From Croceicoccus estronivorus (lineage in GTDB: Bacteria > Pseudomonadota > Alphaproteobacteria > Sphingomonadales > Sphingomonadaceae), in NCBI RefSeq assembly GCF_001625325.1, contig NZ_JRQQ01000006.1, positions 62,001 through 126,000 on the forward strand: a stretch of 64,000 nt of DNA. The letters are read 5' to 3'. The notes below the pieces were generated by a model. That model was not told the origin of the DNA, did no database searches, and saw only the letters and a program-made list of their open reading frames with translations. Shown one piece after another: positions 41,512 through 63,394 of the stretch. Both the position numbers and the translations under genes were made by a program. Every line of letters starts with the position of its first letter. Within the stretch, counting starts at the first letter, position 1.

Positions 41512-42147
41512 TTAGGCTGACGGTGCATTCCTGAAATATATCCAGGGTCGTGCATCATGGTCAGTTGCCCTGAAATCCTGAATGCGCGAACGATATCTCA
41601 AGGTCAGGTCAATCGGATCGAGGCCCAGCATCAATGCCTCGCGCACTTCCGGTTCGATGTCGAATGACCATTGCTGCCCATCAGGCAACACGACCAGCTG
41701 TTGTTCGAGATCGACCGTCAATTCCGGCTGCCCGGCCGCTTCGAGTGCGGACGCGAGAGTGCTCACGGTTTCCATCGGCAACGAAACCGGCACGACACCG
41801 TTCGCAATGCAATTCCCGCGAAAAATCGGATTGAACGAGGGCGCGATCACAGCGCGAATGCCATATTGGGCCAGCGCCCAGACCGCGTGTTCCCGGCTCG
41901 AACCACAGCCAACATTGGCCCCTGTCAGCAATATTCTCGCACCGGCATAGACTGGCTGGTTGAGCACGAAATCAGGATTTGGATCCCGGCTGCCGATCGC
42001 CTTGTAACGCCAACCGGCAAACAGCCCTTCGGCCAATCCCTGGCCGGATGGGCTGCGCATCTCGCGTGAGGGAATGATCGCATCAGTGTCGATATCGTCG
42101 CGTAATAGCGGCGCGGCGGTAGCGGTGAGTGTGGTGAAAGGTTCCAT
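41512..42147 (-). CDS. leuD: LeuD-like small subunit of an aconitase-family hydro-lyase
   Basis: 211 residues. The swivel-domain signature GANVGCGSSREHAVWALAQY and APSFNPIFRGNCIANGVVPV are intact. It pairs with the large subunit directly upstream (stop and start share a base). The symbol is a family name only: no leuA or leuB gene is near, and the operon also holds a CoA-transferase. I therefore expect hydration or isomerisation of a substituted maleate/malate-type diacid rather than leucine synthesis. The C-terminal tail (ATDHDARPWIYFRNAPSA) matches LeuD. Confidence 0.85.
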   Translation of the reverse strand: MEPFTTLTATAAPLLRDDIDTDAIIPSREMRSPSGQGLAEGLFAGWRYKAIGSRDPNPDFVLNQPVYAGARILLTGANVGCGSSREHAVWALAQYGIRAVIAPSFNPIFRGNCIANGVVPVSLPMETVSTLASALEAAGQPELTVDLEQQLVVLPDGQQWSFDIEPEVREALMLGLDPIDLTLRYRSRIQDFRATDHDARPWIYFRNAPSA

Positions 42148-44695: not shown

Positions 44696-44749
44696 ATCCG
44701 CAACACTCTCCATCAACCGTAACGATGCTTCTCGACAAGCGACGATCAT

Positions 44750-44769
44750 TTGATATAGATATAAGACAA
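44750..44769. promoter_or_regulatory. Operator site a of the proposed GntR regulon
   Basis: On the minus strand this reads TTGTCTTATATCTATATCAA. It is 18/20 identical to the site at 50896-50915. It lies in the divergent promoter of the CoA-transferase/leuCD and lyase operons and ends 19 bases before the lyase ATG, where a bound protein would block transcription. Confidence 0.68.
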
Positions 44770-44788
44770 TAAAGCAAGAAGAGGTTTG

Positions 44789-45745
44789 ATGCATACCGAG
44801 ATTCTCGTCAGCGAAGTCGGCCCCCGCGATGGCCTCCAGAGCATTGGCCAGATCATGCCTACCGAACAGAAGAAGGCATGGATCGCGGCAGAGGCGGCTG
44901 CAGGCGTTCGAGAAATCGAGGTCGGCAGTTTCGTGCCTCCCAAGCTCTTGCCGCAAATGGCGGATACTAGCGAGATCGTTAGCTTCGCCCGCACCATTCC
45001 CGGCCTGACGGTGGCGGTTCTGGTTCCGAATCTGCGCGGCGCACAGGCCGCGATCGAGGCGGGCGCGCACAAGATCACTCTACCCCTCTCCGTTTCGGAG
45101 TCGCACAGCCTCGCCAACCTGCGGCGCACACATGACCAGATCATCGAGGAATCGCGCGCGATAGCCGCATTGATCGCAGAGCAGCCGGAGGATCAGCGCC
45201 CCCATTTCGAAGGCAGTCTTTCGACCGTGTTCGGTTGCACGTTGGAAGGCGCGATTCCCTTGCCCCAGATCCTGCGCTTGGCGGAACGGCTGATGGATGC
45301 GGGTTGTGACGAAGTCGGCCTGTCGGATACGACCGGCTATGCCGATCCACGCGCGGTAAGGGAAATGATCAAGGCGGTGCGAGGTGTCGTCGGAGAAGAC
45401 GCGCTGACAGGCATCCACCTGCACAATACGCGGGGGCTCGGCCTCGCCAATGTGCTTGCCGCGCTCGAAGAAGGGCTGAACACGGTCGATTCGTCACTCG
45501 GCGGAATCGGTGGGTGCCCATTCGCACCTGGCGCCAGCGGCAATATCGTGACGGAAGATCTTGTCTTCATGCTTCAGGCCATGGGGCTGAAAACCGGAAT
45601 CGATCTGCCCCGGCTGCTCGAGGTGCGCAAGATCATCGAACAGGCCCTGTCGGAAGAACCGCTCTACGGCTTCACACCCGATGCCGGGCTTCCGCTGGGC
45701 TTCACGCCCGAAACAGTGACATCAGCTAAGGAGGCTGCGGAATGA
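44789..45745 (+). CDS. HMG-CoA lyase-like acyl-CoA lyase
   Basis: 318 residues from the ATG at 44789, after AGAAGAGG. DRE-TIM family: Arg13 and Asp14 in VSEVGPRDGLQ, FVPPKLLPQMADTSEIV, GLSDTTGYADP, IHLHNTRGLGLAN with the metal His pair, and the signature DSSLGGIGGCPFAPGASGN with the active-site Cys. It cleaves a 3-hydroxy-3-substituted acyl-CoA into acetyl-CoA (or a homologue) and a keto compound. Beside the CoA-transferase and LeuCD pair, citramalyl-CoA or a similar ester is a plausible substrate (inference). First gene of a four-gene operon. Confidence 0.93.
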   Translation: MHTEILVSEVGPRDGLQSIGQIMPTEQKKAWIAAEAAAGVREIEVGSFVPPKLLPQMADTSEIVSFARTIPGLTVAVLVPNLRGAQAAIEAGAHKITLPLSVSESHSLANLRRTHDQIIEESRAIAALIAEQPEDQRPHFEGSLSTVFGCTLEGAIPLPQILRLAERLMDAGCDEVGLSDTTGYADPRAVREMIKAVRGVVGEDALTGIHLHNTRGLGLANVLAALEEGLNTVDSSLGGIGGCPFAPGASGNIVTEDLVFMLQAMGLKTGIDLPRLLEVRKIIEQALSEEPLYGFTPDAGLPLGFTPETVTSAKEAAE

Positions 45746-46422
45746 CGATTGGCACGCACATGGTGAAGGAGGACAAGACCGCCCGCCAGCTATTCGAGGA
45801 AGTGATGGCCAATCCCGCCCGCGCCAAATTCGGCTTTGGTGAGAAGCTTGCTATCGTCAACGTCGATTTCCAGAACGCCTATACCCGGATCGACGAATTC
45901 AAGACTGCCTACGAAACCGACCCACGCCAGATTGAATATGCCAACACGATTTCCCGTCTGGCACGTGAGAAGGGCATGCCGGTCATCTGGACGCATGTTG
46001 CCTACATGAAAGACGCCAGCGATGCGGGCGTATGGGGCACCCGCACCGACACACCCGACTCGCTTCAGAACATCAAATACGGCAGCCGCCGCCATGAGTT
46101 CGACGAGCGGTGCGAGATCGATTACGACAAGGACGCCGTTTACACCAAACGGATGCCTTCGGCCTTTTTCGAAACGCCGCTGCAAAGCCTGCTGGTGTGG
46201 CACAAGGTGGATACGCTGGTAATTACCGGCGGATCGACCTCCGGCTGCATACGCGCCACGGCAGTGGACAGCCTGAGCCGCGGCTATCGCACCATTGTCC
46301 CCATCGAAACCTGCGCGGACAAACATGAAAGCTATCACTTCGCGAACCTGACCGATCTCCAGCTGAAATATGCCGATGTGGAACCGGTGCAGACCGTGAT
46401 CGACTGGCTGGAGGCGCGGTAA
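45742..46422 (+). CDS. Isochorismatase-superfamily amidase (N-carbamoylsarcosine/maleamate amidohydrolase-like)
   Basis: 226 residues; ATGA overlap with the lyase. The Cys-hydrolase triad is Asp42 (NVDFQNAY), Lys136 (AVYTKRMPSAFF) and Cys169 (GGSTSGCIRATAVDS), with the cis-peptide block before the Cys. CADKHESYHFANLTDLQLKY and ADV resemble N-carbamoylsarcosine and maleamate amidohydrolases. It hydrolyses a primary amide, releasing ammonia, as expected for the half-amide formed when a cyclic imide is opened. The exact substrate is inferred from neighbours. Confidence 0.92.
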   Translation: MTIGTHMVKEDKTARQLFEEVMANPARAKFGFGEKLAIVNVDFQNAYTRIDEFKTAYETDPRQIEYANTISRLAREKGMPVIWTHVAYMKDASDAGVWGTRTDTPDSLQNIKYGSRRHEFDERCEIDYDKDAVYTKRMPSAFFETPLQSLLVWHKVDTLVITGGSTSGCIRATAVDSLSRGYRTIVPIETCADKHESYHFANLTDLQLKYADVEPVQTVIDWLEAR

Positions 46423-47357
46423 TGGACGAAGGCGCAAAGGACCCTGGGCTATACGATTTTCGCCCATATCGCGATCGGCCACGGTTGGAATGGCCCGATG
46501 GCAAGAGTGTCGCCGTATGGGTTTCCCCCAATCTGGAATTCTACGAAATCGATCCGCCGGCCAACCCGTTCCGCAAGAGCTGGACCAAGCCGCACCCCGA
46601 CATCGTACCTTATGGCCACCGGGACTACGCCAATCGCATTGGCCATTGGCGCATGGCCGAAGTCATGGAAAAGCACGGCTTCAAAGGCTCCGTCTCCCTG
46701 TCCGTTGCCCTGTGCCAGCATCACCCTGATGTCGTTGCCAATGCGAATGAACTGGGCTGGGAATTCTTCAGCCACGGCATCTACAACACCCGCTACAGCT
46801 ACGGCATGGACGAGGCGCAGGAACGCGCGATTATCGAGGATTCGATCAACACCGTCCGCGACGCCACCGGCCAGACGATCAAGGGCTGGCTCGCCCCTGC
46901 CCTGACGCACACACCACGCACGCTGGACCTGATCGCAGAATATGGGATGACCTACACCTGCGATCTCTATCACGACGATCAACCGGCGCCGGTGCATGTG
47001 AAGACCGGCAAGCTGATATCGATGCCCTACAGCATCGAGGTGAACGACCACTACGGCTTCTTCGTCTACAACATGTCACCGCGCGAATACGCTGACACCC
47101 TGATCCGGCAATACGAACGGCTCGCTGCCGAAGGGGAGCGGTCAGGCGGCACAGTAATGTGCATTCCGCTCCACAGCTACCTGATCGGGCAGCCCCACCG
47201 GATCGGCCCATTCGAGGAAGTCCTGCGCCACATAGCTGCCGATGATCGCGCGTGGATTACCCGCAGCGGAGACATTGCCGATCATTTCCTATCGAGCGGC
47301 CAATACGAAACCACCGCAGCCGATTGCGCTCGTTACAAGCAGGGAGACGCCGCATGA
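46422..47357 (+). CDS. Polysaccharide-deacetylase-fold (NodB/CE4) hydrolase, PuuE/imidase-like, copy 1
   Basis: 311 residues; TAATG overlap with the amidase. NodB-type fold: GHWRMAEVMEKHGFKGSVSL, WEFFSHGIYNTRYSYGMDEA, GWLAPALTHTPRTLDLIAEY, YTCDLYHDDQPAPVHV. The usual metal-binding TFDDG is replaced (WVSPNLEFYE), and the HxxxH motif is only SHGIYN. This resembles PuuE allantoinase and bacterial cyclic imide hydrolases, which as I recall belong to this fold. It would open a cyclic imide or ureide to a half-amide. No signal peptide, so cytoplasmic. Confidence 0.85.
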   Translation: MDEGAKDPGLYDFRPYRDRPRLEWPDGKSVAVWVSPNLEFYEIDPPANPFRKSWTKPHPDIVPYGHRDYANRIGHWRMAEVMEKHGFKGSVSLSVALCQHHPDVVANANELGWEFFSHGIYNTRYSYGMDEAQERAIIEDSINTVRDATGQTIKGWLAPALTHTPRTLDLIAEYGMTYTCDLYHDDQPAPVHVKTGKLISMPYSIEVNDHYGFFVYNMSPREYADTLIRQYERLAAEGERSGGTVMCIPLHSYLIGQPHRIGPFEEVLRHIAADDRAWITRSGDIADHFLSSGQYETTAADCARYKQGDAA

Positions 47358-48283
47358 GCCTGGATCCAGCCTATCTGACCTATCCCAAACGCCGGAAGGG
47401 AATGGACCAGAATCTCTACACACCTTCCCCCATGCCATCGCGCAAGCCGGTGACGTGGCCGGGCGGCAAACCGGTCGCCGTCACTTTGCTCGTCAATCTG
47501 GAATGGTTTCCGATCACGCCGGAAGACAAGCCGTTCCGCGCACCGGGTCATATGGTAACTCCCTATCCCGATTATCGTCATTATACGGCGCGCGAATACG
47601 GAACGCGGGTCGGCTTTTATCGCTTGCTCGATGCGTTCGAAAAGGCAGGCGTCAAGGCAACTGTGGCTGCGAATTCCGCCATTGCCGAACGCTATCCGTC
47701 GATCATCCAGGACATTCTTGCCGCAGGGCACGAGATTATCGCCCATTCCACGGACATGAACGGCACGATCGCGAGTTCTCTCACCGAAGAGGAGGAACGT
47801 GCGCTCATCACCACGGCCCGCGACACGTTGTCGGCGGCAATGGGCAAGGCCCCGCGCGGCTGGCAGTCCATCGCGCGATCACAGAGCTGGAATACGCCGA
47901 AGCTGCTCGTTGAAGAGGGTTTCGACTACATGTGCGACTGGGTAAACGACGACCTGCCCTACATCGCTGCCACCGAAGCCGGCACTATTGTTTCCGTGCC
48001 TTTCAACCACGAGCTGTCGGATCGGCAGATGATTGCCGTTCAGCAACAAAGCATGGATAGCGTCGCACAGCAGATGGAAGACGCACTTGCCTGGCTGAAG
48101 GCCGAGGCAGCACAATATGGCGCGGGACGTGTTCTGCCGTTCACCCTGACGCCCTACATTACGGGCCTGCCCTATCGCATGGATGCGTTCGAGGCTCTGC
48201 TGGCCCGTCTGGCTGGAGACGACGCCACCTGGTTCGCCACGACCGGCGAACTCGTGGACAGTTGGAAAAGCCAGATCTGCTAA
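47354..48283 (+). CDS. Polysaccharide-deacetylase-fold (NodB/CE4) hydrolase, copy 2
   Basis: 309 residues from ATG 47354, overlapping the previous stop (ATGA). Same fold and layout as copy 1: KPVAVTLLVNLEWFPITPED, TRVGFYRLLDAFEKAGVKAT, HEIIAHSTDMNGTIASSLTE, GWQSIARSQSWNTPKLLVEE, YMCDWVNDDLPY. The first metal Asp pair is missing here also (LVNLEW). It could form a complex with copy 1 or act on a second ring. Last gene of the lyase operon, followed by a strong hairpin. Confidence 0.85.
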   Translation: MSLDPAYLTYPKRRKGMDQNLYTPSPMPSRKPVTWPGGKPVAVTLLVNLEWFPITPEDKPFRAPGHMVTPYPDYRHYTAREYGTRVGFYRLLDAFEKAGVKATVAANSAIAERYPSIIQDILAAGHEIIAHSTDMNGTIASSLTEEEERALITTARDTLSAAMGKAPRGWQSIARSQSWNTPKLLVEEGFDYMCDWVNDDLPYIAATEAGTIVSVPFNHELSDRQMIAVQQQSMDSVAQQMEDALAWLKAEAAQYGAGRVLPFTLTPYITGLPYRMDAFEALLARLAGDDATWFATTGELVDSWKSQIC

Positions 48284-48350: not shown

Positions 48351-48680
48351 TCAGTCTGCGGCTTTCTCCGTAACAGCCTCTTCACGTGGATCGAGCATGA
48401 TGCGCATTGCACGCATCAGCAAACCGTCCGTCGCCTGCTGCCGTTCCTCCGCGACATCCCCTTCATAGGTTATATCGCGCAACGCGGAGACATCTTCCCC
48501 GCGCAGTTGCGCCACCAGCCGTTCAAGCCGGTCGATGCGATCATTGGCGACCGCAAGTTCGATCAATGTCGCCAACGCGATGTTGAGAACCTCTTCCGTC
48601 TCCCGGTTGGCAAGGCTGGGCTTGCGCGCACCTCGCGCGGAAGAAATGAGTTCGATCAGGGCTTCGGCTTCACTTTTCAT
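48351..48680 (-). CDS. Small coiled-coil protein, paralogue of the one at 55111-55413
   Basis: 109 residues from the ATG at 48678-48680, which overlaps the methyltransferase stop (ATGA). Mostly helical: TEEVLNIALATLIELAVAND followed by RIDRLERLVAQLRGED, then RDITYEGDVAEERQQATDGL and RAMRIMLDP. The pattern RxDxxER ... xDI ... DVxEER ... RxMR is shared with the 100-residue protein at 55111. No enzyme motif. It is tied to the methyltransferase and is probably its partner or a small regulator of assembly (inference). Confidence 0.75.
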   Translation of the reverse strand: MKSEAEALIELISSARGARKPSLANRETEEVLNIALATLIELAVANDRIDRLERLVAQLRGEDVSALRDITYEGDVAEERQQATDGLLMRAMRIMLDPREEAVTEKAAD

Positions 48681-49822
48681 CCGTTGTTGTCCTGGCCCGG
48701 CTTGCGGCCGCTGATGGCATACCACCGGTTGTTCATCATGCCCGACAGGGCAGCAAGATCGTGTTCGATCACAGTGTCAGCGGGGAATCCTGCGGCGATC
48801 ATGTCGGCCTTGAGGTCCGCTGTCGCATAAGTGGCCCAGTGGACTTCCCCATTCCAGTGCGTGTCCCAGTCCCGTTCCACCTGATGCACCAGCGTCGGCG
48901 GGTTGCGGATGGCGACATCCTGATGAATCACCACCCCTCCGGGGCGCACCACGCGGAAGGATTCGCGGATCATCGCCTGCCGCTTTTCCTCGCCGATTTC
49001 GTGCATCAGGTTATGCGACACGACCAGATCGAAGCTGTCATCCTCGAATGTCAGGGAAGAGGCGTCCATCTGATGAAAATGAACCGCGACACCAAGCGAT
49101 TCCGCCCGCGCGTGAGCATAGCGAAGCATCCCGGCGCCCAGATCCAGCGCATGGACCTCCACATCTGGCCAGTGCGCGGCATAGGCAGCCGAAGCCGCCC
49201 CGGCCGAACAACCGATGTCGAGCATCCTTGCGGGCTTGAAGCCGGTAAATGCCTCTTCCAGCAGGCGAAGGATGACCCCGGCCTTGCTGTCGCCACGACC
49301 TATGCCCTGACCGAAGGAGAAGACATTGCCGCCCAATTCGTACAGCGCACCGGCAACGACATCGTTCTCGCCCCGGTCCATGCCGTAACCGCCAGGCTGG
49401 AGATGGATGTCCACGTCAGCGACTTCCGGTGAGGGATCATAGGACGGATCAAGCGTGAGACTGCCACGGCGGGCTGGCGAATGCATCAGTTCTTCAGTGA
49501 CCGCTTCCATACGGTCCAGATCGCGATAGATCGGCTGGCCTACCGAAACCCAGATCATTTCCTGAGCAGAACGATTGGCCGCGCTCCACAGCCGATAGCT
49601 GGGCGCCATCAGAAACGCCTCCCGGATCTCCTCCTCCGACTGGGGCCGGCGGCCATGGCGTTCGGCAAAGGCGGGGGCTGCTTCGCTGTCATAGATCTCG
49701 ACATTGCGCGGCCGGACCTTTGCATTGAGCAGGCGGCGAAGCGCAACAACCGCGCCCTGTCTGGAACGTTCCTCCACAGTGGTCTGCGGCAGGACCGCGT
49801 GCTGGACGTCACGAACCTTCAT
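48677..49822 (-). CDS. SAM-dependent methyltransferase with a novel N-terminal domain (copy A)
   Basis: 381 residues from ATG 49820-49822, preceded by AAGGAG. The C-terminal half is a class I methyltransferase: LDIGCSAG at 203-210, VHALDLGAGMLRYAHARAES, FDLVVSHNLMHEI, RVVRPGGVVIHQDVA. The first 170 residues are unusual and include RLWSAANRSAQEMIWVSVGQ, SLTLDP and DVDIHLQPGG. The same layout recurs at 62053-63258. The N-domain may bind the substrate or a cofactor. Operator-like site at 49886-49905, 63 bases upstream. Substrate unknown. Confidence 0.85.
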   Translation of the reverse strand: MKVRDVQHAVLPQTTVEERSRQGAVVALRRLLNAKVRPRNVEIYDSEAAPAFAERHGRRPQSEEEIREAFLMAPSYRLWSAANRSAQEMIWVSVGQPIYRDLDRMEAVTEELMHSPARRGSLTLDPSYDPSPEVADVDIHLQPGGYGMDRGENDVVAGALYELGGNVFSFGQGIGRGDSKAGVILRLLEEAFTGFKPARMLDIGCSAGAASAAYAAHWPDVEVHALDLGAGMLRYAHARAESLGVAVHFHQMDASSLTFEDDSFDLVVSHNLMHEIGEEKRQAMIRESFRVVRPGGVVIHQDVAIRNPPTLVHQVERDWDTHWNGEVHWATYATADLKADMIAAGFPADTVIEHDLAALSGMMNNRWYAISGRKPGQDNNG

Positions 49823-49885
49823 CACCTGCTCCTTCATTCGATCGTGCCCGTATGAAAGCACCCGGCGGGCATTGCTGCAACTCTT

Positions 49886-52270: not shown

Positions 52271-53122
52271 TCAATGCATTTCCTCGCCGCCAGAGACGTT
52301 CATCGCCTCGCCGGTGATGTAACGCGCCTGACCGGAACAGAGGAACGCACAGGCATTGGCGGTATCGTCCGGCGTACCCACCCGGCCCAACGGAATGCGG
52401 CCGCGCATGGCGGCAAGATATTCATCCACCGTTTGCCCGCGCGCCTTGGCCATGAATTCGTTCTGCCAGCTGCCGAGCCCGGTCGTCACATGATTGGGGC
52501 AGACCGCGTTGACGGTGATCTGTTCCGGCCCCAGTTCGATTGCCGCCGAACGCGTCAGCCCCACCAGACCATGCTTGGAGGCGATATAGGATGAGGTGAG
52601 CGCCGACCCGGACTTCGACCCGCGGCTGCCAATCGAAACCACGCGTCCCCGCCCCCAGTTCTCCTGTACCGGCTGCGAAAGCATCTGGCGCACGGCGTGC
52701 TTCATGGCGAAAAACGAACCACGCAGGTTCACGTTCAACACCGTGTCCCACATTTCCTGAGTGGCATCCACCAGCGGCCCGAACAGGTAACCGACACCGG
52801 CATTGTTCACGAGAATGTCCAGCCTGGCATACTTTTCAACCGCATGGGCAATCAGCGCCTGCACTTGCGCCTCTTCCCGCATGTCTGCCTGAAACGTACT
52901 GACATCCGGGTTAATCGCCCGAATATCGGCAGCCACTTCGGCCATTTCTTCCGAAGCGCCAACGCCATGCGCTGGCGCCATATCGCCCTGCGTTGACCCC
53001 AGATCATGAAGCACCAACTTCGCACCATCTTCTGCCAGCTTGCGCGCAATTGCTTCGCCGAGCCCCTTGCGCCGGCCCGCACCCGTGACGATCGCCACCT
53101 TGCCTTCAAGATCGGGATACAT
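52271..53122 (-). CDS. Short-chain dehydrogenase/reductase
   Basis: 283 residues. Nucleotide motif VTGAGRRKGLGEAIARKLAE, NNAGVGYLFGPL, Ser in VSIGSRGSKS, Tyr and Lys in SYIASKHGLVGL, all intact. The unusual RRKG insert in the glycine loop also occurs in other SDRs of acyl-CoA catabolism. It oxidises or reduces a hydroxy/keto group. Last gene of the operon with the dienoyl-CoA-reductase-type enzyme, 12 bases apart. Confidence 0.92.
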   Translation of the reverse strand: MYPDLEGKVAIVTGAGRRKGLGEAIARKLAEDGAKLVLHDLGSTQGDMAPAHGVGASEEMAEVAADIRAINPDVSTFQADMREEAQVQALIAHAVEKYARLDILVNNAGVGYLFGPLVDATQEMWDTVLNVNLRGSFFAMKHAVRQMLSQPVQENWGRGRVVSIGSRGSKSGSALTSSYIASKHGLVGLTRSAAIELGPEQITVNAVCPNHVTTGLGSWQNEFMAKARGQTVDEYLAAMRGRIPLGRVGTPDDTANACAFLCSGQARYITGEAMNVSGGEEMH

Positions 53123-53134
53123 TGTGGTTTTCTC

Positions 53135-55114
53135 CTAGATTTCCATGCCCGCGCGATAGCCTTCGGATGTGGCCGAAAGGGCGATGCGCGGCGCTCTGCA
53201 ATCGCCTACCAGGCGAATATCCATGCCACGGCCGCGCAAGGCGGCTGCCAGCGCATCGTCGGGAATCCGCGGCGTGGCATAAGTCAGAAAGGCGACATCG
53301 CGGAGCACACCTTCGGCCCCGCTAAAGATGTTGGCATAGGCGAGCTCGCCCTCCTCCAGCTTCGGCTCGGGCAATGGGCGAACCGAAGTGACGATCTCCA
53401 CGCCTTGCTCGTAGAGCCGCCGGTAAACACCCTGCCGCACGATCAGGGATTCATCGCTTGCGATGCGCTCACGCGGGGTGAGAATGGTCAGCTTTTCGAA
53501 CCGGGTGAGCAGGAACTCAGCCGCGTCATACGTGAATGCCGAGTGATCTTCATCCCAGATCACCGCCCTGCCTTCGGTAACGCTGGCATATGGCTGCAAC
53601 AGGGCCACAGCCTGGCGAATATCGGGCACCAGACCATCCTCGCGCCATTCCTCAGGCAGGAAATCCGGCCAGGTGCCATATGCCCCGGTGGCAAGCACAA
53701 CCACATCGGGGGCGAGGGCGAGAATCTCATCCACACCGGCCTGCATGCCCATATGCATGGTCACGCCGTATCGCCGGGCAGCGAGCTGCTGATAATCGTA
53801 GATGCTGCTCAGCCCTTCGCCTCCGGGCAAGTCAGCATGCAGGCGGGTTTTCCCGCCCGGCTCATCCGATCTGCCCAACACATGGACTTCGTGGCCGCGA
53901 GCGGCGGCGACCCAGGCCGCTTCCATTCCGGCTATTCCGCTACCGACTATAACCACGCGCCTGGGCTCCGCAGCCGGTTCTGGCCGCCAATCCGCTTCGT
54001 CAAGCGCACCGACGCGGGGGTTATTGTCGCACCGGAGCCCACGCCCGGAGGTAATCATGTGCCAGCAGGTGTTGCACGACACGCAATATCGAATTTCCGC
54101 CTCGCGGCCGTCCCGCGCCTTCACCGGCCATGCCGGGTCCGTCACCAGCGGGCGAGCGAGCATCACAAGATCCGCCATTCCGTCGCGAACCAGCCGCTCC
54201 CCTTCGTTGGGATCGGTAATCAGGCCCAGGGCACCGAGAGGGACATCGGGCGCAGCACCGCGCCCCAGCCGATGGATCGTGTCGACATACGGCATACGCG
54301 GCCCGTGGTTGTCGGGCAGATGGGTATAAAGGGTATCGGAGTGGCTACCCCAGCAATACGTCAGATAATCCATCATACCGGTGGCATGGAGGATCGTGGT
54401 GATCGCTTCCGCTTCGGCAAAGTCAATTCCATCCGGCATCCCGTCCCAGGCCGGGAGCTTGAGGCCGATCAGGAAGCCCGCCCCGCACTCCGACCGGATG
54501 CCGGACATCAGTTCTCGCAACAGCAAGGTCCGTCCGCCAAGATCGCCACCGAATTCATCCTCGCGGCGGTTGGAACGCCGCGCGAGAAACTGGTGAAACA
54601 GATGCCCATGTCCGGCCGAAATCTCCACACCGGCAAAACCCGCATCAGACAGCATGCGGCAGGATGTAACGAATTCATCGATCATCCGGCGAACCGCATT
54701 GGTTTCCATCGCATGAGGCACGGTCCAGCTCAGGTCATCCGGCAGTGCCGAAGCCCCCTGCGCCTCCAGGTTGCGATGTCCTGCCCTGAAACCCCGGCCA
54801 TTGTCCTGAACTTGCCCCAGCATCAGCCCGCCTGCGCGCTGCACAGCCTCTGCCCAATGCGCCAGCGCATCGGCATTGATTCCGGACAGGACATGAGGAC
54901 GAGTGGGAAGGACCTGGCTGCGGAGCATGGCCATCGGTTCACTGACCAGGAGCGACGCCCCGCCCTTAGCCCGATTGACGTAATAGCTGATAAGGCGTTC
55001 AGTCACTCGCCCGCGATCGGCAAAATGCGTCGAAGTCGATGCATGGACGATCCGGTTCTGCAACTGATGCGGCCCGACTTGGACCGGCGAAAACAGATTG
55101 GGATAGGAAGTCAC
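53135..55114 (-). CDS. 2,4-dienoyl-CoA reductase / 2-enoate reductase-type flavoenzyme (OYE family with 4Fe-4S and FAD)
   Basis: 659 residues. N-terminal FMN TIM barrel (LFSPVQVGPHQLQNRIVHAS, AGVEISAGHGHLFHQFLARR with SNRREDEFGG). The [4Fe-4S] ligands are Cys344, Cys347, Cys350 and Cys362. An FAD/NAD(P) domain starts at about 386 (RRVVIVGSGIAGMEAAWVAA). It reduces an activated C=C bond using NAD(P)H. Start overlaps the stop of the small coiled-coil gene (ATGA), which is therefore co-translated with it. Confidence 0.93.
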   Translation of the reverse strand: MTSYPNLFSPVQVGPHQLQNRIVHASTSTHFADRGRVTERLISYYVNRAKGGASLLVSEPMAMLRSQVLPTRPHVLSGINADALAHWAEAVQRAGGLMLGQVQDNGRGFRAGHRNLEAQGASALPDDLSWTVPHAMETNAVRRMIDEFVTSCRMLSDAGFAGVEISAGHGHLFHQFLARRSNRREDEFGGDLGGRTLLLRELMSGIRSECGAGFLIGLKLPAWDGMPDGIDFAEAEAITTILHATGMMDYLTYCWGSHSDTLYTHLPDNHGPRMPYVDTIHRLGRGAAPDVPLGALGLITDPNEGERLVRDGMADLVMLARPLVTDPAWPVKARDGREAEIRYCVSCNTCWHMITSGRGLRCDNNPRVGALDEADWRPEPAAEPRRVVIVGSGIAGMEAAWVAAARGHEVHVLGRSDEPGGKTRLHADLPGGEGLSSIYDYQQLAARRYGVTMHMGMQAGVDEILALAPDVVVLATGAYGTWPDFLPEEWREDGLVPDIRQAVALLQPYASVTEGRAVIWDEDHSAFTYDAAEFLLTRFEKLTILTPRERIASDESLIVRQGVYRRLYEQGVEIVTSVRPLPEPKLEEGELAYANIFSGAEGVLRDVAFLTYATPRIPDDALAAALRGRGMDIRLVGDCRAPRIALSATSEGYRAGMEI

Positions 55115-55413
55115 ACGTCCCGCGTTTCGTGCAGCCGCATGACGCGGCGAATAAAGCTGGCGTTCCAGGCCGATCGTTCGGCCTCGACTTCGGGCGTGGG
55201 CTGGAAATTTTCGATGTCGTCGCGGCTCACGCTGCCCTTTTGATCCAGCACGCGCTCGATCGTGTCCATACGTTCACGCAACGCGGCCGTTTCCGCCATC
55301 ACTTCAAGCAGGCACGTCATCAACTGGTCGACAGCAGGATCCTGATAGAATTGCGATCGCTTGCCCTTGCTGATCCGGGGCAGCTTCACACCGTCATTTT
55401 CACCTGCCGCCAT
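55111..55413 (-). CDS. Small coiled-coil protein, paralogue of the one at 48351-48680
   Basis: 100 residues. VDQLMTCLLEVMAETAALRE followed by RMDTIERVLDQKG forms a helical core, then SRDDIENFQPTPEVEAERSA and RRVMRLHE. It aligns with the 109-residue protein at 48351 over about 75 residues. No enzyme motif. First gene of the OYE-type operon. Its role may be as a partner of the enzyme encoded next, as for its paralogue with the methyltransferase. Confidence 0.75.
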   Translation of the reverse strand: MAAGENDGVKLPRISKGKRSQFYQDPAVDQLMTCLLEVMAETAALRERMDTIERVLDQKGSVSRDDIENFQPTPEVEAERSAWNASFIRRVMRLHETRDV

Positions 55414-55493: not shown

Positions 55494-57815
55494 TCAGAAA
55501 TCGTAGCGTGCGCGTACCATCCACGTACCGGGAGCATTGAGGTACGGGTAGATCAGATACGACGTCCGATAGGTCTTGTCGAAGCAGTTGCTGCATTCGG
55601 CCCCGATGGACCACCCGCTATCCGACTTCAGAGTGATACCGCCGTTAAACAGGCTGTAGCCCTTCTGATAGCCACGCACGTCATTGGACGTCGAAACCCA
55701 CGTCTCACTGGTATAGCGCCAGTTGACCGACGGGGTCAGCGTGAAGCCGCCGCCCAGTTCCGCTTCGTAGCTTGCGCCAAGAGTGGACGTGAAATCGGGC
55801 GCACGGGTCGGTGTGGCGATCTGGCCGTCCGGTGTCACGATACCGGCATTGCAGTTGTTCACCGTCACACCGTTCAGGCAGTTGTCGATCTGATCGAGGG
55901 TCGCCTGGTTGGGGTTCTTGTACTGGGCATGCTGCAGGCCGAAGCTCCAGTAGATGTTCAAACCCCGGGTCGGACGAACCGTGATTTCGGCTTCAAGACC
56001 ATAGTTCTCGAGATCGGCCACATTGCGGGTGAGATAAGTGATCGTGTTCGTCAAAGGATTCAGACCACCGCCCGGAAGCTGCTGATCGTAATCCATGAAA
56101 TAAAACCCGGTCAGGTTTACCCGGAGCTTGCGATCGAACCATTCGGAACGGATACCGCCTTCGTAGGACCAGATCGTTTCCGGATAGAACGCCACTGCGC
56201 CCTCGGCATAGTAAGCACGCGCATTCCAGCCGCCCGACTTGAAGCCGCGCGTCGCCGACGCGAAGATGTTCAGGTCCGGCGTGAATTCATACTGCAACGC
56301 GAAACGCGGCGTCCATTTCTTGGCATTCAGTTCCACCGGGATGCCGGCGTCGATCAGGTCCTGCGTATCAAACGGCTGGTTGATTGCCGAAGAACGCGGG
56401 AGCGGGTTGTCGTTCGGCTTGAAGCCGATCGTCTTGTGTTCGTCGGTATAGCGAATACCCGCCGTAAACGTCAGCTTGTCGGTGATGTGGAAATCGCCCT
56501 GCACATAACCTGCATAGGCTTCGGTATCGTTCGACATCACGCGATCGCCGCTGACGCTGGCCGGACCGCTTACCGGCAGCGAGATATTCGCGAAGTTCGA
56601 TTTATTGGTCTCATTGATGTAGTAGAAACCACCGACATAATCGAGAAAACCATTGAACGCGGAACCGGTGATCTTGATTTCCTGGCTGAACTGCTTGTGC
56701 CAGCTATCGTTGACCAGCGGAGTGGAAGTGCCGCGCGACGACGAAACATATTCAAGCCCGTCGAGCACCAGCGAAGAACTGCTCACACCGGCGAAGCTGT
56801 CCGTCATGTATTCCTGATAGAGGTGACGATAGCCGGTGATGAAATTGATCGTCGCATTGTCGAGACGCACCTCGAAATTGGAACTGATCGAATAGCTGTC
56901 AGCCGTATTGCCCAGTTCGTTATCGGCAAGCTGTTCGGACACCAGGTCGCTGCCGATCGGTGTATCGGTACGCAGCGGGGTGAAGCTGATGCGCTTGTCC
57001 CCATCCTTGAAGTTGGGGAAGTTCGCGACCGAGGAACTCACGTAGTCGGCCGAAACATCCCAGGTCACATCCGGGCTGATCAGCGCACGAACCGCACCGC
57101 GCAGCCCCCAGCTTTTCTCGCCATTGAGCTTCTGGCCGGTCGTCAGGTTGTCAACATAACCGTCCGCATTGACATAGTAGCCGGAAATCTTGGTCAGAAT
57201 TGACGAATTGATGGGAAGGTCGACCGACCCGCGCAGTTGCACGCGATTGTACCGGCCATAACCGGCGTCGAGATAGCCGGTGACTTCATCCGACGGCTTT
57301 TTCAGAATGACGTTGACTGCGCCACCGGTCGTGTTCCGACCGAACAGAGTGCCCTGCGGCCCGCGCAATACTTCGACGCGTTCGACATCGAAGAACGAGA
57401 AGTTGTTCGCACCCTGACGCGAAATGTAGATGTCATCGACGTAAGTCCCGACAGGCGGGTCGAAGGTCGAGATGGATTCCGTGTTCGCCAGACCACGCAG
57501 AGCGTAGGCGTTGGCCGTACCGACGGATGTATTGTTATGCCCGATCAGGTTCGGAACATAGTTCACCAGATCCAGCATGCTGTTGACCTGGCGGGTGGCC
57601 AGATCGTCCGCGCTCATCGCGCTGACCGCGATGGGAACATCCTGAAGACGTTCAGCACGACGCTGCGCAGTCACAATGATTTCACCCACCTGACCGGCAT
57701 TCGTGGAAGCGCCATTCTGCGCCTGGGCAGATGCAGCAGTCTGCGCATGTGCCGCTGTCGACGACAGCAGGACCGCCCCGACAAAATAGGAAAACTTACG
57801 TGTGTAGCTCATCAT
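55494..57815 (-). CDS. TonB-dependent receptor
   Basis: 773 residues from the tandem ATGATG at 57815. Signal peptide MMSYTRKFSYFVGAVLLSST then AAHAQ. Plug GEIIVTAQRRAERLQDVPIA, VEVLRGPQGTLFGRNTTGG; C-terminus MVRARYDF. It is distinct from the other receptors in the window. Site f of the operator lies 106 bases upstream, so its expression would be tied to the catabolic genes of this half. Probably imports the substrate of the island. Confidence 0.95.
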   Translation of the reverse strand: MMSYTRKFSYFVGAVLLSSTAAHAQTAASAQAQNGASTNAGQVGEIIVTAQRRAERLQDVPIAVSAMSADDLATRQVNSMLDLVNYVPNLIGHNNTSVGTANAYALRGLANTESISTFDPPVGTYVDDIYISRQGANNFSFFDVERVEVLRGPQGTLFGRNTTGGAVNVILKKPSDEVTGYLDAGYGRYNRVQLRGSVDLPINSSILTKISGYYVNADGYVDNLTTGQKLNGEKSWGLRGAVRALISPDVTWDVSADYVSSSVANFPNFKDGDKRISFTPLRTDTPIGSDLVSEQLADNELGNTADSYSISSNFEVRLDNATINFITGYRHLYQEYMTDSFAGVSSSSLVLDGLEYVSSSRGTSTPLVNDSWHKQFSQEIKITGSAFNGFLDYVGGFYYINETNKSNFANISLPVSGPASVSGDRVMSNDTEAYAGYVQGDFHITDKLTFTAGIRYTDEHKTIGFKPNDNPLPRSSAINQPFDTQDLIDAGIPVELNAKKWTPRFALQYEFTPDLNIFASATRGFKSGGWNARAYYAEGAVAFYPETIWSYEGGIRSEWFDRKLRVNLTGFYFMDYDQQLPGGGLNPLTNTITYLTRNVADLENYGLEAEITVRPTRGLNIYWSFGLQHAQYKNPNQATLDQIDNCLNGVTVNNCNAGIVTPDGQIATPTRAPDFTSTLGASYEAELGGGFTLTPSVNWRYTSETWVSTSNDVRGYQKGYSLFNGGITLKSDSGWSIGAECSNCFDKTYRTSYLIYPYLNAPGTWMVRARYDF

Positions 57816-57921
57816 AATGCGCCCCTTTTCCCTCACCTGGAAGACCTCGGAAATGTTCGTGTGATCGCGACGGATCGCGGCCACCTCCTGCACCGTTCGG
57901 TATGTCTCGCCCGACTCTTAA

Positions 57922-58056: not shown

Positions 58057-58872
58057 TTAGGTTACGCTGACCAATGGACCTCGTACCGCCGCCCACCATT
58101 CGTCGATTCGATCCAGCACCATGCCCGGCCCGCCGGGCAACTCCGCGTAGGCCCAATCCTGACGGTGCTCGGCCAGCTTCCTGACAAACGGGAATACGGG
58201 ATCCGTCCTGCTGGCAATGACCATGCCGGGGCATGAAATCCGGGGTACGTCACGTTCGAAATCGTAAAGCGGGATCACGCCGTGGCCGTGTTCCTTCCAC
58301 GGTCCGTGCAGGAAATATGTGATCACCGAGATATGGACCGTCTCGTCACTCCAGTCCGGATCGCCTTTTTCACGGACCCATGCCCAGCGATCGGTGATAT
58401 GGCTGCCATCGGGCGCAATATCCTGACGATCGGGAAACTTGCCGATCCGCGCCTGCCTGTCTGCCACCGTATAGAGCGGGGCATTGTCCAGGATAAGGAA
58501 CTTCACCAGTTCAGGCTCCTCCGCCGCCAGTCTTCCGGCAACCAGACCGCCACCGCGATGGCCGATCACGATAGCCGGCGTGGCATTCAGTTCGCGCAGC
58601 AGGGCGGCCAGACAATCAGCATAACATTCAATGCTGGGCTGCCGTGGCGGATCGGACATACCGTGCCCCGGCAGGTCGACCGCAATCGCCCTGAAGCCGG
58701 CGTCGGCAATGCGGGGCAATGCGTGACGAAACTGAAGCGATGACCAGGGGGCCTGATGGATCAGCAGGACCGGTACACCCTCCCCAAAACTGCGGTAATG
58801 CAGCTGGCCTTCCGGTCCGTCGACATAGCCGCGCCTTTCACCCGGCAGCGCCGTCATGATCGGTAAAATCAT
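58057..58872 (-). CDS. Alpha/beta-hydrolase-fold protein lacking the catalytic Ser and His
   Basis: 271 residues from ATG 58870-58872, overlapping the flavoprotein stop (ATGA). Clear fold: VLLIHQAPWSSLQFRHALPR, AIAVDLPGHGMSDPP, and ASRTDPVFPFV. The nucleophile elbow reads IGHRGGG, with Arg106 where Ser, Cys or Asp belongs, and the C-terminal GxGH is GPGM, so the His is lost as well. The DNA codon is CGC; AGC would encode Ser, one base away. It is probably a non-hydrolytic member or a binding protein working with the flavoprotein. Confidence 0.85.
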   Translation of the reverse strand: MILPIMTALPGERRGYVDGPEGQLHYRSFGEGVPVLLIHQAPWSSLQFRHALPRIADAGFRAIAVDLPGHGMSDPPRQPSIECYADCLAALLRELNATPAIVIGHRGGGLVAGRLAAEEPELVKFLILDNAPLYTVADRQARIGKFPDRQDIAPDGSHITDRWAWVREKGDPDWSDETVHISVITYFLHGPWKEHGHGVIPLYDFERDVPRISCPGMVIASRTDPVFPFVRKLAEHRQDWAYAELPGGPGMVLDRIDEWWAAVRGPLVSVT

Positions 58873-60380
58873 GCAGGTTCTCCGACTGGAACAAGCGACT
58901 GGCCGAGCAACCGGCCAAATGTCATGGCAGGCGTCACCATCATCCCTCCGCATGCAGCCTTGCCCATCGTCTGACTCGATCCGAGCACTTCGCCCGCTGC
59001 ATAGAGGTTGGTGATGGGCGATCCGTCTTCGCGGACAACTCTCAGCCGATCATCGACCGCCAGCCCGATGGAGCTGGAAATCGCGCTGGCCTGCATGCGG
59101 ATCGCGTAGAATGGTCCTTGGGCAATCGCCCGCGGCAGGTGCTGCCGACCGAAAAAATCGTTCCCGGTCTGAACCCCGTAGTTGTATCCGGATACCGCCG
59201 AAATGAGCCCGTTTTCGTCGATTCCCGCCTTTTGGGCGAGACCCTCCAGAGTATCGGCAGTAAGGAAGGCCGGGCCCGCGCGTTCGAACGCCTCGATCAT
59301 CTGTTCGCGCGTCCAGCCGACCACGATTGGCGGTGCATTTTGCAGGATCGCTTCGTCGAAGACGATCCAGTAGCGGTAGTCCGGCTGGTGCAGCAGGGCC
59401 ATTTCCCGCGCATCGACGCTTTCTATATCCTCGCGGACGAAGCGCTTGCCGTGCACATTGACGTAGATTTCCCAAGGTTTGCGCCGTTCGGGAAAATGTT
59501 CGATCCGGCCCGTGATCATTGCCGGAAAAGTGTCGGTATCGAACAGCGAACCGAAATTGACGAAGACATTTTCCTGCCCCCGCGCATACCCTCCTACCGA
59601 CAGGCCGAGCTTCAGCCCGTCACCGCGTGACCAGGGATAGGGGGCAGCATTGTATTGCGGGTAACCGTTGAGGCGTTCGAACATCTCGGGATTGCCGGCA
59701 TAGCCACCGCAAGCCAGGATTACCGCGCCAGCATGATAGGTATGCTCGATCCCGTCAGGCCCGTTTGCGGCCAGCCCGATGATCCCACCTTCATCGTCGG
59801 TCAGCAGCCGGGTTACATCGTGCCCGAGAGCAATCGTGATCAGGCCTTCGTCAGCCAGCTTCTCGACAATCGGGACCAGCACGTTCTTGACAGAAAGGCC
59901 CCCTTCAGCCCCCCAGTAGTAACGCTTTTCCCGATAGGGTTCATGGCCAAACCCCTTTACCGGGTGATCCGGCAACGGTTCAAAACCTGCGTCCATCAGC
60001 CAGTCGAAGGTGTCGGCAGCATTGTCCACCGCCAGACGCACCAGACCGGGATTGGCCGTTCCCCGGCTGATCCGCATCACGTCCTTGAAATGCAGATCGG
60101 GCGTATCGACGACGCCATGCTCGCGCTGCAAACGGGTGCCCGCGGCGCTCATCTGTCCTGTTGCGACCCACAACGACCCGCCAAGCTGTTGCGCATGGTC
60201 AAGAAGCAGTACCCTGGCCCCACGTCGGGCTGCGAAAATGGCCGCAGGCAGGCCTGCCGACCCCGCCCCCACCACAGCGATATCCCAGACCGTGGCCGTG
60301 CCCGATGCGGCCTGCGGCCGGTCGGTCCCATCCTGTGCTGCAGTCTTGTCCAGCATCGCACCGCCACTCGCAACGTCCAT
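58869..60380 (-). CDS. FAD-dependent flavoprotein of the fumarate reductase / 3-ketosteroid dehydrogenase family
   Basis: 503 residues. FAD-binding GAGSAG at 38-43 (WDIAVVGAGSAGLPAAIFAA), GGSLWVATGQMSAAGTRLQ, ILACGGYAGNPEMF, and the C-terminal ITNLYAAGEVLGSSQTMGKA followed by ACGGMM. This layout belongs to flavoproteins that dehydrogenate or reduce a C-C bond next to a carbonyl or carboxyl. AGAGG precedes the ATG. Operator site c ends 19 bases upstream. First gene of a two-gene operon with the catalytically altered alpha/beta protein. Confidence 0.9.
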   Translation of the reverse strand: MDVASGGAMLDKTAAQDGTDRPQAASGTATVWDIAVVGAGSAGLPAAIFAARRGARVLLLDHAQQLGGSLWVATGQMSAAGTRLQREHGVVDTPDLHFKDVMRISRGTANPGLVRLAVDNAADTFDWLMDAGFEPLPDHPVKGFGHEPYREKRYYWGAEGGLSVKNVLVPIVEKLADEGLITIALGHDVTRLLTDDEGGIIGLAANGPDGIEHTYHAGAVILACGGYAGNPEMFERLNGYPQYNAAPYPWSRGDGLKLGLSVGGYARGQENVFVNFGSLFDTDTFPAMITGRIEHFPERRKPWEIYVNVHGKRFVREDIESVDAREMALLHQPDYRYWIVFDEAILQNAPPIVVGWTREQMIEAFERAGPAFLTADTLEGLAQKAGIDENGLISAVSGYNYGVQTGNDFFGRQHLPRAIAQGPFYAIRMQASAISSSIGLAVDDRLRVVREDGSPITNLYAAGEVLGSSQTMGKAACGGMMVTPAMTFGRLLGQSLVPVGEPA

Positions 60381-60637: not shown

Positions 60638-61996
60638 TCAGGCCGTTGCCGGGGTGGTCTGCATGGCCACATCACCCTGTTCGGCACGGGCCCGCGTGAT
60701 TGCCGCCATGTCTTCCACCAGCGCGCGATAGTGGCGGAAGCCCAGCGCCATGAAGATCGCGGTCGGCAGACCGATCAGCAGAACGAAACCGCACAGGACG
60801 TATCCGATCGACGCCGGGTTACCCGACCAGTCGGTCGCCGCACCGATCAGCGGCGGCCCAAGCAAAGGCCCCACCAGAGTTATCACAGTGTTGAATATGG
60901 CCACCGACCGGCTCCGCATTTCGCCCGGAGTGATCATCTGCAGCGCAGCCGGACCACCGGCAGTCGCCGCCGACTTGCCGATGAAGGCAATGAACATCGC
61001 CACGATGGCAATTTCTGCCGTGGGCATCACAGGATACAACGCACTGGCCGGCACGGTAATGCAAAGGCCGAGGATCAGCGTGTACATGCCACCCAGTTCA
61101 TTGCCGTGTCCGAACCGCTTGCTGGCCCAGAAAGCCAGGGCAGTGCCGAGCGGCCCCGCCGTGAAATAGAAAATGCCGGTGACCGCGCCGATGGTCAGTA
61201 CGTCCCAGCCCCACACTCTCTGGAAGAGAGGCACATTCCAGAACGTCAAAGTGCTCATCGCGAAATTGCAGGTCGAACCGAGGAAGAGAACACCGAAGCC
61301 TTTCCAACGCTTCAGCATGTAGGCAACCGCGCTCATTTTCGCTTCATCGGCCGCATTGGCGCTGATCTTGTCAGTCTGCGGGGGTTCTTTGACTGTCAGC
61401 ATCAGCAATGCGAGCAATGCGCCCGGCAAACCCACCAGCAGGAACGTCGTCTGCCACGGCGCGAAGGAGCGGCCGAGAATGTCGACATGGCCGACATCGT
61501 GCAGTGCCGAAACAAGCAGACCGCCGCCTAGGAACGCCAGCCCGGCGCCGAGATAGGGGCCCGCCATGTAGATGCTGATCGCCCGAGCCCGCCCCTCGCG
61601 CTTGAAATAGTCGCTGATGATCGAAACCGAACAGGGGCTCACCACCGCTTCACCGAGGCCGAGACCCAGCCTGAAAATCAGGAGAGGCAGGAACGACATG
61701 GCGAAGCCGCTCATCACGGTCATCGTGCACCAGATGAAAATACCCGCGATCAGCAGCCATTTTCGGTTGGTCTTGTCGGCCAATAATCCCAGCGGGATAC
61801 TGACGGCCACATGGAACAGCGAGAACGCCGGGCCAAGCAACAATCCGATCTGGAAATCGCTGAGGCCCATCGACTGCTTTATCGGATCGACGATCAGCGA
61901 CAGGATATATCTGTCGAAGTATGACAGGATGAAAACCAGCAGCAGCAGGACGACGACATACCAACGATAGGCCGCACTGTCGGTGTCAATCTTCAC
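60638..61996 (-). CDS. MFS transporter, spinster-like
   Basis: 452 residues, 12 membrane segments expected, start at GTG 61994-61996. N-terminal FDRYILSLIVDPIKQSMGLS, FQIGLLLGPAFSLFHVAVSI and PLGLLADKTNRKW (MFS motif A) resemble spinster-type carriers common in sphingomonads next to TonB receptors. Probable inner-membrane carrier for the island's substrate. It has no operator copy in its short upstream gap. Confidence 0.92.
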   Translation of the reverse strand: MKIDTDSAAYRWYVVVLLLLVFILSYFDRYILSLIVDPIKQSMGLSDFQIGLLLGPAFSLFHVAVSIPLGLLADKTNRKWLLIAGIFIWCTMTVMSGFAMSFLPLLIFRLGLGLGEAVVSPCSVSIISDYFKREGRARAISIYMAGPYLGAGLAFLGGGLLVSALHDVGHVDILGRSFAPWQTTFLLVGLPGALLALLMLTVKEPPQTDKISANAADEAKMSAVAYMLKRWKGFGVLFLGSTCNFAMSTLTFWNVPLFQRVWGWDVLTIGAVTGIFYFTAGPLGTALAFWASKRFGHGNELGGMYTLILGLCITVPASALYPVMPTAEIAIVAMFIAFIGKSAATAGGPAALQMITPGEMRSRSVAIFNTVITLVGPLLGPPLIGAATDWSGNPASIGYVLCGFVLLIGLPTAIFMALGFRHYRALVEDMAAITRARAEQGDVAMQTTPATA

Positions 61997-62052: not shown

Positions 62053-63258
62053 TCACTCTGCCAGACTGCTCCCGAATACGTACCAGCCACCCTTGCCGTG
62101 GCGCGGGCGCCCCGGCTCATCCCATGCGAAGGCGTCCCTGCGATCGGGATATGCGCCAAGATCCGGCAGGATATGGGCAAAGCTGCGATCCGCGGTGAAA
62201 CCGGCTTCCGCCATCAATTCAATCGGATCCTGTGCCCGAAACGCCGTATAAAACGGTTCGTTGTTGTGCTCCGTATCCCAGTTCCAGAAGAAATCTTCCC
62301 AGGCATCGACCAAATGGGTTGCCGGCAATTCCAGATGCACCATCAAGCCGCCAGGACGCAGCAACCGGCGGCATTCGCGCAAGGCGTTGCGCGTCGCCTT
62401 CACGGGAATTTCATGGAAGAAGAAACTGGAAACGATCATATCGAAATGCCCATCGGGGAAATCCATCGCCTCGGCATTCTGCTGACTGAAGTGAATCGGG
62501 GCCCCCTGATGTTCGGCAAGGGCATGACCATAGCGTAACAGCGGCGCGCCAATGTCGACCCCATGCGCTTCCACATCCGGAAACACCTCCAGATAGGGAA
62601 GCAGATTCTTGCCGGAGGACGTGCCGAGATCCAGCATCCGCTGCGGCTGAAAATCTGGATAGGCATGCCTGATCCAGCGGCTCATCACGCGTGCCGCGCC
62701 ACCCCAGCTGCGGTGGCTCATGCTGGCGGTGAAGACTCTTGCCCCAAGACTGACAACTGCGCCTTGCGCCACGTCGTCAGCCACCCATTCGTTATGGAAA
62801 CAGCCGGGGGTGAGATGCACGTCCAGCGCATCGAGGTAACGGGGGATCTCCAGCTCCGGGTCGAGCCGTAGCGAACCGCCCGCCGGATTCCGTTCGGCCG
62901 CATCACGCGCGACATCGATCATGTCAGGCAAGACCCGCTCAACCTCGTCCTGCACGGACAGGAAGCACATTTCCTGCGCGTTGTAGCGTAGACTGCTGTA
63001 GAGCTGGTAGATCGGCTCATCTTCCAAGGCGTGTTCGATTGCCCGCGCCGTGTCGAATTGCGTGCCGCGTGCCTCGCCGGCAGGTTTGACCCGTTGCTCG
63101 AAATCGCGGCGAACGGCTTCCGGCATATCCTGGATCGCAAAACGCCTGAGCGCACTGCAGAAGCGTTGCCGCCCCCGCTCGTCCAGCGTCGGGTGAGCGA
63201 GCGCTTCGATATCGGGGATCGCCGAATTCTTCCTGTCGTCGGTCGCATTCGCAGCCAT
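62053..63258 (-). CDS. SAM-dependent methyltransferase with a novel N-terminal domain (copy B)
   Basis: 401 residues from ATG 63256-63258, six bases after AAGGAGG. Methyltransferase motif I LDLGTSSGKN at about 209-218, VEAHGVDIGAPLLRYGHALA, FDMIVSSFFFHEIPV, RLLRPGGLMVHLELP. The first 180 residues match copy A: YQLYSSLRYNAQEMCFLSVQ, SLRLDP, LDVHLTPGCF, VVSLGARVFTAS. Closely related in the N-domain, so both probably act on similar substrates. It is divergent from the FAD monooxygenase with operator site d between them. Confidence 0.86.
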   Translation of the reverse strand: MAANATDDRKNSAIPDIEALAHPTLDERGRQRFCSALRRFAIQDMPEAVRRDFEQRVKPAGEARGTQFDTARAIEHALEDEPIYQLYSSLRYNAQEMCFLSVQDEVERVLPDMIDVARDAAERNPAGGSLRLDPELEIPRYLDALDVHLTPGCFHNEWVADDVAQGAVVSLGARVFTASMSHRSWGGAARVMSRWIRHAYPDFQPQRMLDLGTSSGKNLLPYLEVFPDVEAHGVDIGAPLLRYGHALAEHQGAPIHFSQQNAEAMDFPDGHFDMIVSSFFFHEIPVKATRNALRECRRLLRPGGLMVHLELPATHLVDAWEDFFWNWDTEHNNEPFYTAFRAQDPIELMAEAGFTADRSFAHILPDLGAYPDRRDAFAWDEPGRPRHGKGGWYVFGSSLAE

Positions 63259-63352
63259 GGATAACCTCCTTGGGCAAATTGCCCCAGCAGCCGTTCCGGC
63301 AAAATTTTTCCCTTGACCTGATGGGCCGTGAAAGGATTTACGCCAGACGAAT

Positions 63353-63372
63353 AGTCTTATATCTAATACAAA
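63353..63372. promoter_or_regulatory. Operator site d of the proposed GntR regulon
   Basis: TAGTCTTATATCTAATACAA shares 16 of 20 bases with site a and keeps the ACAA end of the palindrome. It lies 22 bases upstream of the monooxygenase start and 94 bases upstream of methyltransferase B. Confidence 0.63.
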
Positions 63373-63394
63373 TCGCAACACAAGGGGTCACGTG

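Follow-up and report, generated by a model that had tools for sequence, protein, structure and literature searches.

An alpha/beta-hydrolase-fold protein with arginine at the nucleophile elbow, encoded in a conserved sphingomonad operon

Enzymology has studied few folds as intensively as the alpha/beta-hydrolase fold, and it is common to annotate its members as hydrolases. In fluoroacetate dehalogenase, Arg residues located just after the nucleophile bind the substrate carboxylate. Several families of this fold have lost the catalytic triad, and non-hydrolytic roles are known for the Ser-less lyases and CGI-58 (PMC11878206); the passages of that account dealing with triad loss make no mention of a basic elbow, either Arg or His. 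In the description of a cofactor-free oxygenase, His-251 is named as the base (PMC3961685).

Here we analyze a 64,000-nucleotide stretch of DNA from Croceicoccus estronivorus (hereafter the window), in which an ORF at 58872-58057 on the minus strand encodes a 271-aa protein of this fold (P0001). An ATG further upstream, at 58953, would lengthen the reading frame, but the start was placed at 58872 because that start is common to near relatives (MxLPI...). P0001 passes Pfam PF00561 (Abhydrolase_1) with 65.7 bits against a cut-off of 25.8, while none of the 20 named NCBIfam families listed, BchO, PcaD and haloalkane dehalogenase among them, rises above its curated cut-off, the best match being TIGR03056 with 64.8 bits against 172.55. 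The hydrolase fold is seen in a predicted model computed from 17 sequences (pLDDT 84.9, pTM 0.85), which matches canonical alpha/beta hydrolases with a Z of about 27 over about 250 residues, its cap being of low confidence in parts (10-residue blocks of 54-79 across residues 141-200). The gene and its key residues are given below, with counts over the 58 rows of a wider group that is defined further on, 13 of them with Arg at the elbow and four with the elbow GHHGG.

58057..58872, minus strand: Arg-elbow alpha/beta-hydrolase-fold protein P0001, 271 aa
58753..58755, minus strand: Gln40 codon, HQ motif, putative functional residue; Gln in 51/58 group rows, Gly or Lys in canonical outgroup rows
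58555..58557, minus strand: Arg106 codon CGC, nucleophile elbow; the 12 Arg relatives likewise use CGC or CGT, and the three GHHGG rows examined use CAT (His)
58399..58401, minus strand: His158 codon, cap, DGSH motif, candidate relocated base; His in 54/58 group rows
58282..58284, minus strand: His197 codon, cap; His in 13/13 Arg, 4/4 GHHGG and 28/41 other rows
58201..58203, minus strand: Asp224 codon, usual acid, retained; Asp in 55/58 group rows
58120..58128, minus strand: P249-G250-M251, approximate place of the catalytic His; aligned positions 246-253 without His in 13/13 Arg and 4/4 GHHGG rows

Residues 104-109 of P0001 read GHRGGG, and phmmer against solved structures pairs them with GHDWGG, the elbow of soluble epoxide hydrolase, so that Arg106 is aligned with the nucleophile Asp of that enzyme and hence stands at the nucleophile position, where P0001 has none of Ser, Asp or Cys. 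The acid after strand 7 is present as Asp224 in the stretch RTDPVFP and is kept in all 13 Arg rows, and the loop after the last strand, GGPGMVLDR, is devoid of the catalytic His, which is absent from residues 246-255 of the predicted model. The first-pass annotation had described this very combination, an Arg (codon CGC) at the elbow, GPGM for the usual GxGH, and a retained fold and acid region, and translation, alignment and model bear it out in each part. It had further credited two other hydrolases of the window with intact triads; by eye this is right for 6788-7723 (GHSAG, GDRD, GHH) but not for 30527-31477, in which Ser (SHSMG) and His (GHW) are accompanied by no evident acid, the usual site after strand 7 reading GAQSWAYPP with neither Asp nor Glu. 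The acid of the latter protein may have moved.

Arg occupies position 106 in 13 of 17 aligned proteins, namely the window protein and 12 relatives of 68-82% identity, and His occupies it in the other four, whose identity to the window protein is 39-56% (53-56% for the three GHHGG rows examined). Duplicates L018, L026 and L027, from the same genomes as L009, L010 and L011, were left out of this alignment. As Arg is found in every one of these 12 relatives, its occurrence is not due to chance, and the notion that it is unique to the C. estronivorus genome was rejected; the codons listed above show that the Arg and His forms can be linked by one base change. The NG86 dN/dS within the Arg clade has a median of 0.20 and a maximum of 0.33 (72 usable of 78 pairs, the other six having no dS), which indicates purifying selection on the gene and sustains the earlier expectation of a useful, maintained protein. 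Taken together, P0001 is a maintained protein, probably re-purposed, that lacks the classical machinery.

The distribution of such proteins is patchy. Matches at E 1e-40 were found in 9 of 397 genomes at the family level, 15 of 396 at the order level and 8 of 385 at the class level, and in 5 of 398 at the phylum level, searched with the other profile, the own genome being included each time. Scanning genome contigs yielded 11 loci, each from a sphingomonad according to its title, and plasmid records added loci from Novosphingobium and one from Streptomyces, all of these matches lying below 60% identity. The best matches in three genomes of the same genus (77-78 bits) are at the level of the ordinary hydrolases that the group profile detects in the own genome (73-76 bits), in which no second group member was found and the next matches of P0001 are weaker ordinary members with 36% identity over part of the length.

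These proteins belong to a wider His/Arg-elbow group that is defined in this analysis and not by a database. All loci together yielded 63 distinct rows of at least 60 bits; lower-scoring and near-identical rows were dropped, among them L028, also with Arg, so that a fourteenth Arg row is uncounted. The 58 rows of at least 130 bits form the group, four rows of 63-77 bits were placed in the outgroup (elbow Ser in L003, L005 and L066_12640, Asp in one), and L039_313 (71.7 bits, elbow unclear) was set aside. The elbow residue across the 58 rows is His in 41, Arg in 13, Ala in two (L052 and L085, GRATG), Asn in one (L038, GANTG) and Asp in one (L046, GVDTG), and Ser in none, a count to be read with the fact that the profiles were built from His and Arg proteins and the loci mostly fetched at E 1e-40 or better, so that lower-scoring Ser kin may be missed. 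Homologues that all carry Ser, which the first-pass annotation had named as the sign of a sequencing error or a decayed gene, are thus not what was found. P0001 shares with the group the His or Arg elbow together with Gln40, cap His158 and Asp224. His is missing from the aligned loop 246-253 in 45 of the 58 rows and present in 13. A match in L032 that contains one TGA was considered as a possible broken copy, a reading then rejected, since the open frame runs to base 1504 and the TGA is its natural end; L048, with one TAG inside the match, looks like the same case. In the PDB, the matches listed for either profile were ordinary hydrolases, and searches of mostly open-access literature for the motifs and for triad loss found no published account of this group among the papers listed.

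A tree was built from the 58 group rows and two Ser outgroup rows, with column 106 omitted and without the outgroup rows L005 and L002, which are partial. All 13 Arg rows fall in a single clade (support 100/95) that needs one change, and the four GHHGG rows are its sister, both together supported at 100/100; the deepest forks are unsure owing to long branches, L033_2280 and L057_2072 among them. On this tree, the Arg elbow is a trait that arose once, inside the His-elbow group. By our own criterion, 11 positions are fixed differently in the Arg and the GHHGG rows. They include 106 and 189 as well as 131 (Met to Ala) and 249 (Ala to Pro); the changes at these last two, of which 249 lies close to where the lost His would be, may accompany the bulkier Arg.

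The gene lies in an operon of the following order: methyltransferase, MFS transporter, flavoprotein (where present), the Arg gene or its GHHGG counterpart, a large receptor-like ORF, a small ORF, Old Yellow Enzyme and short-chain dehydrogenase. In the window its members are:

62053..63381, minus strand: methyltransferase-domain protein
60638..61996, minus strand: MFS transporter
58869..60380, minus strand: flavoprotein, FAD_binding_2, nearest solved structures flavocytochrome c fumarate reductase and urocanate reductase; 4-base overlap with the Arg gene
55494..57893, minus strand: large ORF, TonB-dependent receptor by eye, conserved neighbour of the Arg gene
55111..55413, minus strand: small ORF, no match in Pfam
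53135..55114, minus strand: Old Yellow Enzyme/FadH-type reductase
52271..53122, minus strand: short-chain dehydrogenase

Besides the window, 15 of the 16 longer Arg and GHHGG loci keep this order, the exception (L022) starting at a contig end, with no methyltransferase or MFS gene seen. A promoter scan found 0 sites and a terminator scan 3, against shuffle means of 0.9 and 2.1. The 4-base overlap with the upstream flavoprotein, reported in the first-pass annotation, is found as ATGA at 58872-58869. A flavoprotein adjoins the Arg gene in 11 of 13 Arg loci, the window counted, each time with a 4-base overlap, and adjoins the GHHGG gene in all four loci with an overlap of one base (TGATG). In L018, from Parasphingopyxis lamellibrachiae, and in L021, from Sphingorhabdus sp. 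109, the Arg gene and the rest of the operon are present, and the flavoprotein is missing between the MFS gene and the Arg gene. No flavoprotein match was found in either genome at E 1e-30, nor in that of L018 (G074) at E 1e-10, at which the positive controls G000, G296 and G368 matched; the absence from L021 rests on a single search of a genome of unstated completeness. Hence, the Arg protein appears to work without the flavoprotein.

A second His-elbow protein (GHHTG), which retains His in the usual loop and accounts for six of the 13 group rows that do so, adjoins the Arg gene in L017, L019 and L020 and, at three of the four GHHGG loci (L076, L078 and L079), the GHHGG gene. Its N-terminus is signal-peptide-like, by eye, in the two rows from L017 and L019. 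Its positions are:

L017:3381-4484, second His-elbow protein (GHHTG)
L019:3464-4468, the same
L020:3463-4440, the same
L076:8315-9277, the same
L078:6121-7257, the same
L079:6102-7232, the same

Several further gene sets were observed near members of the group. The window holds, at 41512-48283, a LeuC/LeuD-like dehydratase pair, a class III CoA-transferase, an isochorismatase-like amidase and two genes resembling allantoinase PuuE but below the PuuE cut-off; relatives of these genes recur beside remote His-elbow members in L065, L067 and L068, as does a gene of the PEP-mutase/methylisocitrate-lyase type in L062 and L065, and these neighbours might point to a route of the cyclic imide or maleamate type. 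The cluster L055:895-4822, oriented divergently to the operon, encodes an FAD_binding_3 monooxygenase, whose closest solved structure is 6-hydroxy-3-succinoylpyridine 3-monooxygenase (HspB-like), together with a relative of arylmalonate decarboxylase/maleate isomerase, an aldehyde dehydrogenase and a SnoaL-like protein. Two related methyltransferase-domain proteins occur at the window locus, one at 48677-49861 and the other being that of the operon, and genes related to them turn up again close to remote His-elbow members in L057, L059, L061, L062 and L068, and also near L066. As the pathway of the operon, a steroid or bile-acid route (compare PMC8399759) was considered as a further possibility.

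With regard to function, it seems to us about an even chance that P0001 is a working member of this nucleophile-less and so far unnamed group, catalyzing one step of the catabolic operon with its basic elbow holding an anion. The Arg forms and the nearest His forms lie in the same conserved operon, and the elbow therefore probably does a job open to both residues, such as anion holding; because the residue switches from His to Arg between neighbouring clades, it is unlikely to act as a nucleophile or as a base at neutral pH, and a cation or hydrogen-bond donor fits better. The simplest common role of the elbow would be that of a cation that binds an anion or pairs with Asp224. We propose that this basic residue (Arg in P0001, His in the majority of group members) holds a carboxylate, an enolate or a similar anion, that Asp224 probably acts together with this cation or balances its charge, and that acid-base chemistry, if any, would shift to residues kept in the group, foremost the cap His158, which is the best-conserved candidate for such work now that the usual catalytic His is gone, with Gln40 placed in the oxyanion region. 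A covalent acyl- or alkyl-enzyme would be impossible at such an elbow, and with no covalent intermediate the reactions to be expected are elimination, isomerization, decarboxylation, retro-aldol, hydration, or hydrolysis by directly activated water. We infer the anion anchoring, the role of His158, the status as an enzyme and the reaction from sequence comparison, and lyase or isomerase activity may reasonably be guessed at. Identity between the Arg and GHHGG clades is only about 53-56%, so that a common substrate is an assumption, drawn from synteny alone, and the Arg clade may have come later and made the positive charge permanent. Four of the 58 rows have no His158, and in four the elbow residue is Ala, Asn or Asp; neither residue is thus needed throughout the group.

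An alternative that we regard as unlikely, though deserving of serious attention, is that P0001 is a non-catalytic pseudoenzyme engaged in binding, sensing or substrate handing, possibly for the flavoprotein whose gene overlaps its own. Such a role is suggested by the loss of both classical catalytic residues, by the 4-base overlap in 11 of the 13 Arg loci, and by L061, in which a remote His-elbow member is likewise preceded by a flavoprotein (37% identity) that it overlaps by 4 bases, provided that the heuristic start is correct, gene calls around the remote His-elbow members being heuristic; low dN/dS and kept pocket residues are also compatible with a binding protein. Nevertheless, the L018 and L021 genomes keep the Arg gene with no flavoprotein match, which weakens in particular the earlier idea of a chaperone dedicated to the flavoprotein, and His158, Gln40 and Asp224 are retained in a group that is otherwise widely variable.

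That P0001 is a true hydrolase of unusual mechanism, in which water activated by His158 or another cap residue attacks an Arg-held ester, lactone or amide with no covalent intermediate, strikes us as slightly less likely still. The fold and the acid are retained, the nearest solved sequence relatives are hydrolases and dehalogenases, and 13 of the 58 group rows still have the usual-loop His; that His is however missing from all 13 Arg and all four GHHGG rows, and Gln40 takes the place of the usual small residue. As for a sequencing error or a decaying gene, the odd residue itself, and nothing more, speaks for it, while the 12 nearest relatives agree, the frames are open and dN/dS is low, leaving this explanation almost no credit.

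Judged by its sequence and that of its relatives, P0001 represents a re-wired version of a well-known fold that has been maintained; our searches found no description of the group to which it belongs. A group in which Ser is absent from the elbow in the 58 rows collected and the alternative residues are consistent would be mis-annotated, and its Arg and GHHGG clades are tied to a conserved catabolic operon. Moreover, because nature has exchanged His for Arg in syntenic proteins at the fold's best-known position, the function of a nucleophile-less elbow becomes directly testable.

Compared with known systems, P0001 has the core fold and the GHxxG elbow region in common with the soluble epoxide hydrolase/fluoroacetate dehalogenase group, among its best solved sequence matches, but differs in having Arg for the nucleophile and no catalytic His, the phmmer alignment covering only about residues 8-142. 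The fold of the model is shared with E-2-(acetamidomethylene)succinate hydrolase (3kxp, Z 27.3), by its name a hydrolase acting on a small carboxylated compound, the comparison with P0001 being one of fold and name. The base His-251 of the cofactor-free oxygenase is presumably the usual catalytic His that P0001 has lost. Cofactor-free oxygenases, as far as they are described in PMC10548524 and PMC3961685, re-use the alpha/beta fold for other chemistry, as is proposed for P0001. Finally, the Ser-less lyases and CGI-58, as presented in the passages on triad loss of PMC11878206, resemble P0001 in having lost the nucleophile within a kept fold, whereas the lyases keep an Asp/Glu-His dyad and P0001 has lost the His as well.
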